Shown here: positions 26,697 through 28,664 of the stretch, one piece after another
How positions within the stretch are numbered: the stretch's first letter is position 1
Layout of the letters: each line of letters opens with the position of its first letter
Assembly: GCA_021732415.1 (NCBI GenBank)
Contig: JAKFVC010000025.1
Coordinates: 1 to 51,947, forward strand
Direction: 5' to 3'
Length of the DNA stretch: 51,947 bases
From: Planctomycetaceae bacterium
GTDB taxonomy: Bacteria > Planctomycetota > Planctomycetia > Planctomycetales > Planctomycetaceae
Program-made: the position numbers and the translations under genes
The notes under the pieces: model-generated
Databases searched by the model: none
Told to the model about the DNA's origin: nothing
The model's input: only the letters and a program-made list of their open reading frames with translations

Positions 26697-27524
26697 ATGA
26701 AGTTTGCCATCTGTCATGAGCTGTTCGAGAACTGGGAATGGGAACGCCAATGCAAGTTCATCGCCGAGTTGGGCTACAAGGGAATTGAACTCGCGCCCTT
26801 CACGCTGGCCTCGCGTATTACTGATGTCTCGGCCGAGCAACGCAGTACTCTGCGGAAGCAGGCGGCCGACCATGGATTGGAGATCATGGGACTGCATTGG
26901 CTGCTCGCCAAGACCGAAGGCCTGCACGTCACCACGCGCGATATCGCGACACGACGTCGTACCGTTGTCTATCTGCGAGAACTGGCTAATGCCTGTGCTG
27001 ACTTTGGTGGGAATGTGCTCGTATTCGGATCCCCGAATCAACGCAATCTCGAACCAGGCATGACGCGCGAAGAGGGAATCGCGAATGCCGCTGATGTCTT
27101 TCGCGAAGTCACACCGGTGCTCGCCGAGCGACAAGTCAAACTGTGTCTCGAGCCACTGACACCCAAAGAGACCAACTTCATGATGACGTGCGCGGAGACG
27201 ATGGATGTCGTGCACGCCATTGATCATCACCAGGTCTGTCTGCACCAGGATGTGAAGGCCATGTTGAGCGAATCAACGCCCATTCCCGAGCTCATTGCGA
27301 AGTACCGTGATGTCGTCGGACACTTCCATGTGAATGACAGCAATCTCCTCGGTCCGGGAATGGGCGAAACTGATTATATCCCGATTTTTACGGCACTTCG
27401 TGACACTCACTACAGCGGATGGGTCTCTGTGGAGGTCTTCGATTACAAGCCCGGCTGCGAGTTCATCGCGCGTCGCAGCATGGAGTACATGCTCGATGTG
27501 TTGTCGCGCTTACCACCAGCATGA
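26697..27524 (+). CDS. Xylose-isomerase-like TIM-barrel sugar isomerase/epimerase
   Basis: 275 residues of the AP-endonuclease-2/sugar phosphate isomerase superfamily. Metal-binding positions of the barrel are visible: Glu in KLCLEPLTP, Asp in CLHQDVKAM, His in VGHFHVND and Glu in WVSVEVFD. Such enzymes use a divalent metal to isomerise or epimerise sugars, or act on inositol derivatives; the substrate cannot be read from sequence. ATG 26697 has AGGAG 6-10 nt upstream and begins the typical KFAICHELF strand, so longer upstream frames were discarded. It ends the bestrophin pair. Confidence 0.85.
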   Translation: MKFAICHELFENWEWERQCKFIAELGYKGIELAPFTLASRITDVSAEQRSTLRKQAADHGLEIMGLHWLLAKTEGLHVTTRDIATRRRTVVYLRELANACADFGGNVLVFGSPNQRNLEPGMTREEGIANAADVFREVTPVLAERQVKLCLEPLTPKETNFMMTCAETMDVVHAIDHHQVCLHQDVKAMLSESTPIPELIAKYRDVVGHFHVNDSNLLGPGMGETDYIPIFTALRDTHYSGWVSVEVFDYKPGCEFIARRSMEYMLDVLSRLPPA

Positions 27525-28237
27525 GACACAGCTGCGAGAGCTCACGTTGAGACGTTGATCACGATCACGACCCCATCACTGCATCATCGATGACCATGAT
27601 CATCGTAGCGCTGATGGGGTCTGCTCATTGATCAACATCATGAAGCTACATCATCGATGATGATTCAACGCGTACAACACACTCCACATGACACTCAAGT
27701 GATCCCATAACGCGCGTTGCAGACCATTGTGAGACACTCTGCGCGACTGAATGCGCGAAATTTTTTAAGATATTTTACGAGTGCTTGAAGCTCATCATTG
27801 AGCCTCTGATGAGTCACTCTCACAAGATGCATCACATTCATTTCACCCTGGATTTTTCCACGCCAAATGCATGTCACATATTTCATCATCGAGTGCCTGA
27901 TGAGTGTGTTGCAGGGTCATCGAGAGCTCATGCGTGGCTTCGAAATCGAAAGATTTCCTTGGTTTTTTGATAATTTTGAAGAGATAAGGCTTGCGTTGTT
28001 TTTTGAAATGCTTACTATGGCGAACATCATGGGTCACATGATCATGAAGTTTGTCAAGCTCAAGCAACGATGTCGATGTTGCAGAATGAATGACACGCGG
28101 CAATGACCCCAGTGATCCCCGGCCTATCATGGTTGGTAGGTTGGAAAGAGACATGTTTCGAGTTAGCAGTTTCGACGTTCTAGCCCGGTGCCAGCGACGA
28201 AACCGCTACGAGTTGGCAATGTAAGGAGGAACTTTTC
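27525..28237. other. AT-rich non-coding stretch with many GATC palindromes, upstream of the histone-like gene
   Basis: Over 700 bp with no supportable gene. It is visibly richer in A/T than neighbouring coding DNA and packed with ATGATCATC-like words. Perfect palindromes include CATCATCGATGATG (27649-27662) and CATGATCATG (28037-28046). Two similar 20-odd-bp blocks containing GATGAGT occur at about 27794-27820 and 27881-27907. A GAAATC-GAAA-GATTTC hairpin (27942-27957) with a GNRA-type loop is followed by a T-rich run. It could be a long 5' leader, a non-coding RNA, or a protein-binding region; I cannot choose. Confidence 0.5.
27554..27636 (+). ncRNA. Candidate structured RNA element (three stacked helices)
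   Basis: Three nested complementary pairs line up coaxially: GTTGATCA 27554-27561 with TGATCAAC 27629-27636, GACCCCATCA 27569-27578 with TGATGGGGTC 27612-27621, and CGATGA 27588-27593 with TCATCG 27600-27605. The outer internal loop is symmetric (7 nt each side). It starts 30 nt after the isomerase stop. No long T-tract follows, so it is not a standard terminator. Strand and transcription are unproven. Confidence 0.4.
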
Positions 28238-28393
28238 ATGGCCAAGAAAAAAGCCGCAGCAAAGAAGGCCGCAGCCCCCGCTAAGAAGGCAGCCGCTCCC
28301 GCCAAGAAGGCAGCAGCTCCCGCTAAGAAGGCTGCTCCCGCTAAGAAGACCGCCAAGAAGGCAGCCACCAAGAAGGCCGCCAAGGGCGCTTAG
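28238..28393 (+). CDS. Lys/Ala/Pro-rich histone H1-like DNA-binding protein
   Basis: A 51-residue protein made almost entirely of A, K and P, with repeats of the unit APAKKAA. It resembles the C-terminal tails of bacterial histone H1-like (Hc2-type) and HU-tail proteins, which bind and compact DNA nonspecifically. The ribosome site AAGGAGGA (28223-28230) stands 7 nt before ATG, the strongest in the window, suggesting high expression. It has no globular domain, so it is either a minimal chromatin protein or a short family member. A strong terminator follows at 28475-28516. The large non-coding stretch upstream may be its leader. Confidence 0.82.
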   Translation: MAKKKAAAKKAAAPAKKAAAPAKKAAAPAKKAAPAKKTAKKAATKKAAKGA

Positions 28394-28410
28394 TTCGGGC
28401 TCCCCGATTA

Positions 28411-28458
28411 ATTCGGGCTCCCGAATGAAATCGGGAACTCAACGGGCACTCTGCCCGT
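28411..28458. repeat. Two short hairpins after the histone-like gene
   Basis: ATTCGGGCTCCCGAAT (28411-28426) and ACGGGCA...TGCCCGT (28442-28458) form two small stems before the main terminator. The second resembles the CGGGCA-containing element at 29888-29962. Confidence 0.6.
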
Positions 28459-28474
28459 CCCCGCTACAACGAGT

Positions 28475-28516
28475 AAGAAGCGGTCAAACCCTGTGTTTGA
28501 CCGCTTCTTCTATTTT
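28475..28516 (+). terminator. Strong rho-independent terminator
   Basis: A perfect 15-bp stem (28475-28489 and 28495-28509, core GCGGTCAAAC) with a 5-nt loop is followed by CTATTTT. It ends the histone-like transcription unit. The stem is preceded by an A-containing tract, so weak activity in the reverse direction is possible. Confidence 0.88.
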
Positions 28517-28664
28517 ATCAGGAGTTTTTTCGAGCGACCACCCGTCGACTTCTCACACCCGGTATGGAACCAGTATTGAACGACAATTGTCTCATTTAGG
28601 GCGGACAGATTTCAAAGGCTGTGATCTGATAGCGCAGTGATTCATCGGCAGGGGAGGCGGTCAC

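Follow-up and report, generated by a model that had tools for sequence, protein, structure and literature searches.

A structured RNA leader, probably cis-regulatory, before histone H1-like genes in one family of planctomycetes

In one family of planctomycetes, a small gene for a basic protein of histone H1-like composition is preceded by a structured leader, which is best explained, with a probability of about 0.72, as a family-specific cis-regulatory RNA. Comparison among genomes shows that this leader, found in a stretch of 51,947 nucleotides from a Planctomycetaceae bacterium (the window), folds into three helices, P1, P3 and P4, ahead of the Shine-Dalgarno (SD) sequence; the fold, a promoter-like pair and a lysine/alanine-rich (K/A-rich) open reading frame (ORF) co-occur in most genomes of the family. 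A regulatory role is proposed because a conserved, promoter-proximal fold precedes one gene class, and the leader RNA probably controls the amount of H1-like protein that is made. Few regulatory RNAs are, to our knowledge, known in the phylum, and this result contributes to it a well-supported structured RNA family with three helices and a single gene class, which occurs in 49 of 58 genera of a single bacterial family. It also offers a handle on the dosing of histone H1-like protein in these bacteria, which are noted for their condensed nucleoids.

The leader lies in a gene-free intergenic region, 27525-28237, between a TIM-barrel gene (26697-27524) and a 51-codon ORF. The initial annotation had described this region as A+T-rich and of distinct composition, and rightly so: its G+C content is 0.464 against 0.568 overall, and in a 50-base scan the lowest 700-base value of the whole window (0.459) starts at 27551. 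The region is two things, namely the leader, at about 28024-28237 in its 3' third, and 27525-27990, the other two thirds, which contains a GNRA hairpin as well as an inverted repeat that two of three congeners share. The features are the following, with the basis of each in brackets:

27540-27670, no strand assigned: imperfect inverted repeat, separate from the leader, just 3' of the TIM-barrel stop codon (fold z)
27942-27990, no strand assigned: A+T-rich conserved stretch with a GNRA-like inverted repeat, upstream of the -35 box
27991-28018, + strand: promoter-like pair, TTGCGT (27991-27996), 16-nt spacer, TACTAT (28013-28018)
28030-28118, + strand: P1, a long irregular rod (partner-swap tests)
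28119-28144, + strand: P3, a hairpin with a UGGU loop (compensatory changes)
28164-28208, + strand: P4, a long stem with internal loops and a conserved apical loop, CCCGGUGCCAGC (28184-28195) (swap tests)
28223-28229, + strand: Shine-Dalgarno AAGGAGG, preceding the ATG at 28238, with similar purine-rich sites across the alignment (sequence)
28238-28393 including the stop codon, + strand: ORF of 51 amino acids, MAKKKAAAKKAAAPAKK..., K/A/P-rich and histone H1-like in composition (translation)
28475-28509, + strand: intrinsic-terminator-like hairpin 3' of the ORF, with a 15-pair stem and the tail CTATTTTATC

In the predicted fold the P1 rod is abutted by the P3 hairpin, the long P4 stem follows and AAGGAGG comes last. 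The initial annotation missed this conserved structure (28030-28208); its proposal of a long regulatory leader is supported for 28024-28237, and the helices it named lie further upstream. The 3' strand of P1 directly adjoins P3 in most of the 45 non-redundant leaders compared. The tip of P3 is usually CA-NGGU-UG, and a script recognised YA-NGGU-UG in 82 of 104 leaders; the 22 without it include both misses of the script (such as L018) and real variants. P4 carries the conserved loop CCCGGU..GCCAGC, whose anchor reads precisely CCCGGT in 80 of the 104 leaders; among the rest CCCGGA predominates, and CCCAGT and TCCGGT also occur. The form GGUGCCAGC presumably resembles the 530 region of 16S rRNA.

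Two kinds of evidence support these helices, and both agree with the conserved pairing that had been proposed as a check on this region. The first is compensatory change, by which the base pairs of the leader are preserved in its homologues. In a seed alignment of 13 leaders (A1, from which L020, where no P3 was seen, and L002, a near-copy of L001, were excluded), 85.3% of P3 cells are paired, double changes occur at 8 of 11 pairs and the covariation score is 0.520, against 0.305 in shuffled alignments and at most 0.163 when the structure is slid. A larger alignment, A2, holds 53 sequences (the 45 leaders and eight others). Here 94.3% of P3 cells are paired, with double changes at 8 of 10 pairs, and in P4, where the alignment is imperfect, 69-74% of cells are paired and double changes occur at 11 of 14 pairs; the lower paired share of P4 is, we think, partly misalignment, since its strands vary in length. 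A2 contains 164 double-change cells against 55.1 in shuffles, and its covariation score is 0.399 against 0.227 shuffled and at most 0.123 for slid versions, over which the structure is favoured because it was read off a row of the same alignment (L030). The count of double-change pairs is less striking (19 against 15.9, with 17 of 500 shuffles as high).

The second kind of evidence comes from partner-swap tests, in which each 5' strand is paired with its own 3' strand and with the 3' strands of other genomes, over 5000 permutations. The native partner is strongly preferred in the 45 leaders for P1 (z -16.4), P3 (z -12.9) and P4 (z -10.9), with none of 5000 permutations as good, and a control pairing in the same leaders gives z +0.5. 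These 45 are the non-redundant members of 72 usable leaders out of 104, ten loci having been left out by hand. "Usable" means that the script found a P3 hairpin with 8 or more pairs, so that the P3 figure is partly circular, the leaders having been chosen by that very hairpin. Without the P3 filter, P1 reaches z -13.8 in 54 leaders, and without either the P3 or the promoter filter P4 reaches z -12.4 in 63 leaders, again with 0 of 5000 permutations as good. Kinship could inflate such values; the control pairing shows no such effect.

Upstream of the fold, the motif TTGnnn-16-TAnnAT stands at -205 to -324 in 91 of the 104 leaders, and these 91 give an estimated leader length of 171-290 nt, with a median of 225. 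Within a fixed window from -330 to -195, 86 of the 104 leaders have the motif, whereas 30 shuffles average 0.6 and never exceed 3; spacers of 12 to 20 other than 16 give 0 to 2 matches there. A scan of the window with a generic sigma-70 consensus listed other sites and not 27991-28018, whose -35 box agrees with TTGACA at 3 of 6 positions. The set of 104 consists of 100 survey places together with L002, L003, L004 and L018, one place (L104) having been dropped.

The distribution of the leader is narrow and its association with the downstream gene close. Across 397 genomes of the class, search model R2 matched 100 genomes at 101 places, all in the family of the window, and at 100 of the 101 a K/A-rich ORF in the same orientation follows directly, a result that speaks against the free-standing non-coding RNA suggested in the initial annotation. 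Of these 100 ORFs, 97 were recognised by a first script and three (L028, L031, L091) by inspection, that of L091 being cut by a contig end after a few codons; the sole exception, L104 (= L208), is a second, P3-like place in G371:C79 that no K/A ORF follows. Model R3, which combines P3 and P4, matched 141 of 170 family genomes, 115 of the 130 of good quality and 49 of 58 genera. Over the phylum it matched 27 of 392 genomes, all 27 in the family; since G010 at least, among the 365 non-matching genomes, belongs to the family, at most 364 lie outside it. Searches of more than 40 genomes used stricter filters, at which weak matches are lost. In a DNA search of 59 genomes, the window's own included, the intergenic region was matched nearly completely in one congener (G003) and in parts in two more, and distant genomes gave weak matches, some of them spanning the ORF and the bases immediately 5' of it. 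When the sequences before K/A ORFs were aligned, they had the promoter-like pair in common and, by eye, hairpins with compensated substitutions.

Twelve family genomes listed without a match (one of them, G345, matched by R2 only) served as a check on absence, and in ten of them the upstream gene has a close orthologue. In four (G342, G280, G329 and G345) a K/A ORF is present, its promoter of the same type and its leader weaker (R3 E values of 1e-5 to 2e-4 in a small search), and four others (G012, G381, G138 and G010) have neither K/A ORF nor leader within about 1.5 kb. The locus of G774 is cut by a contig end. In G191 (L239, G191:C2) a long K/A/T/S ORF and a promoter-like pair are present, and the leader is unrecognisable and has no CCCGGU, which is a result against a strict coupling of leader to ORF.

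A second R3 match was found in three of the 141 genomes (G371, G034 and G283), that of G283 lying inside an open frame and being probably due to chance. The second place in G034 (L207, about 599-689; G034:C59:34998-35088) has a P3-like hairpin, then GGAAGGGATTC, 5' of a putative secreted protein. P3 was also considered as a module used elsewhere: a pattern search of 20 family genomes gave about three matches per genome, with far fewer in a backward control, and among these, judged by eye, only the extra G034 place, apart from the leaders themselves, resembles the hairpin.

The 51-residue ORF matched no family in profile searches of Pfam and NCBIfam, and "H1-like" therefore refers to its composition of K/A/P repeats only. 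Across the family the K/A product ranges from 19 to 104 amino acids (L022-L122, uncut ORFs), and the leader is kept throughout. The TIM-barrel gene upstream matches Pfam AP_endonuc_2, with NCBIfam sugar-epimerase matches below the cutoff, and has matches in named genomes of Planctomycetaceae, Planctomicrobium, Schlesneria, Gimesia, Fuerstiella, Thalassoglobus and others. The leader stands downstream of its orthologue, on the same strand, at 59 of the 80 loci kept from that search. In G070 leader and ORF together lie about 0.27 Mb away from the orthologue, an indication that the two remain joined where their surroundings have changed.

We propose that transcription from 27991-28018 would yield a short mRNA whose leader, about 215 nt long, may set the translation of the H1-like protein mRNA, its stability, or both. 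A factor acting in trans would bind the conserved unpaired parts, namely the NGGU at the tip of P3 and the P4 loop CCCGGU..GCCAGC, and P1, a long near-duplex, could either shield the mRNA or make it a target of a double-strand nuclease. Our leading guess for this factor is the basic K/A-rich product itself, a natural candidate for a leader-binding protein, in a putative autogenous control; a ligand or another RNA-binding protein is a possible alternative. A protein-binding leader is favoured because the computations revealed no switch, the SD being average in its pairing and neither a supported pseudoknot to the SD region nor a terminator-like site having been found. In folds predicted up to the start codon for the 45 leaders, the mean unpaired value of the SD is 0.37, close to the 0.35 of all positions; the SD is thus neither masked nor especially open, and no SD-sequestering switch is visible. 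A pseudoknot between the P4 loop and the bases before the SD (GCCAGC/GUUGGC), suggested by eye, failed in the same 45 leaders (p 0.34), a looser version of the test giving z -2.2 with 66 of 5000 permutations as good. No terminator-like site was detected on the + strand of the leader in the window, the interval up to the ORF included.

The best placed of the alternatives, and itself an unlikely one, is a bifunctional or trans-acting RNA, in which the folded 5' part, either processed or within the transcript, would be the product and the K/A peptide secondary or a partner. It would account for leaders whose median of about 225 nt far exceeds ORFs of 19-26 amino acids and whose fold is nevertheless kept, and for the extra P3-like places without a following K/A ORF in G034 and G371. 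The usual arrangement is a single place per genome joined to the ORF, with two matches in only 3 of 141 genomes, one of these inside an open frame, and in the window nothing terminator-like separates the leader from the ORF; both points argue against it.

A riboswitch sensing a metabolite or an ion and controlling the H1-like gene is somewhat less probable still. A structured RNA before a single gene class, with conserved unpaired loops, is what would be expected of it, but the gene class suggests no metabolite and there is no evident expression platform, a T5 run being present in only 10 of 45 leaders and the SD not being sequestered in the predicted folds. Nor was any Rfam family matched: Rfam 15 gave no match at or above the gathering threshold in the whole window or in 20 leader loci, and the five sub-threshold matches in 27400-28600 appear unrelated. 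We give no more credence to a bolder proposal in which the RNA would be the main product, a family-specific and usually single-copy molecule of about 200 nt whose 3' end encodes a polycationic partner peptide (down to 19 amino acids), the resulting ribonucleoprotein acting on the nucleoid.

Least probable by far is that the region works mainly as DNA, with promoter-upstream elements and nucleoid-protein sites and an incidental RNA fold, since the compensated pairs and the preference for native partners, both seen 3' of the promoter, would not be expected of DNA sites. In its favour are the conservation of 27942-27990 upstream of the promoter and an excess of TGATCA (4 against 0.88), but three of the four copies belong to one inverted repeat. 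The same excess is all that was found for the cluster of nucleoid-protein sites put forward in the initial annotation. Of the GATC palindromes noted there, the bare GATC shows no enrichment (7, where shuffles give 5.9 and 374 of 1000 reach as many); TGATCA does (7 of 1000 shuffles), and palindromes in general do so mildly (6-mers 19 against 12.5, 40 of 1000; 8-mers 7 against 3.4, 53 of 1000).

The upstream part has elements of its own. The helices formerly noted near 27554-27636 belong to a real inverted repeat (27540-27670; fold z -4.05, none of 200 shuffles as good), and the opposite strand folds about equally over an overlapping stretch (z -3.89). At the same place two congeners give z -3.14 (L123) and -3.43 (L124), and in the third (L125, z +1.12) the repeat is absent; the stem GACCCCATCA/TGATGGGGTC becomes GACCCAGTCA/TGACTGGGTC in L124, with two compensated pairs. 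Its pairing is thus conserved no further than the genus, where two of the three congeners keep it, and it may be a 3'-end element of the TIM-barrel gene. The stretch 27942-27990, with 94, 88 and 90% identity in three congeners, is a probable promoter-upstream DNA element, and the GNRA hairpin within it (27942-27957) does not hold up as RNA, lying upstream of the -35 box and having a stem change that goes uncompensated in L124 and L125, two of the three congeners. A terminator-like hairpin with a T-run on the + strand (27740-27757), situated between the leader promoter and the upstream gene, could mark the end of the upstream transcript.

Among known systems, the autogenous leader RNAs of ribosomal proteins are structured 5' leaders before genes for small basic nucleic-acid-binding proteins. 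The leader described here likewise stands directly before a small basic protein gene, but its product is H1-like in composition rather than ribosomal, and no Rfam leader was matched. Chlamydia belongs to a phylum related to the planctomycetes. Its IhtA is a separate sRNA that represses translation of the histone-like hctA (PMC3469542), a post-transcriptional RNA control of a histone-like protein such as is proposed here, but the planctomycete RNA would be part of the mRNA. Taken with IhtA, it would suggest that H1-like proteins have repeatedly come under RNA-level control, here in cis.

From the planctomycetes themselves, one survey gives a Rhodopirellula-1 motif, also a candidate and probably cis-regulatory (Weinberg et al. 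2010, PMC2864571). The table there assigns it to Proteobacteria and Planctomycetes and shows no Rfam accession for it. Our leader matched a single family among 392 genomes of the phylum and is set apart from this motif by that listing rather than by a consensus, so the two may be identical. Among the best matches listed in the literature searched, largely outside subscription papers, no RNA leader of this H1-like gene appears in titles or in the openings of abstracts. Relative to Rfam 15 and this literature the leader appears to be new, with identity to Rhodopirellula-1 possible.

In another family of the class, two K/A-rich genes (L013 and L016, in G049 and G057) are preceded by another kind of sequence, which these two congeners have in similar form and in which by eye a hairpin loop ATGCCC could pair with GGGCAT immediately 5' of the SD; this is perhaps a second leader class.
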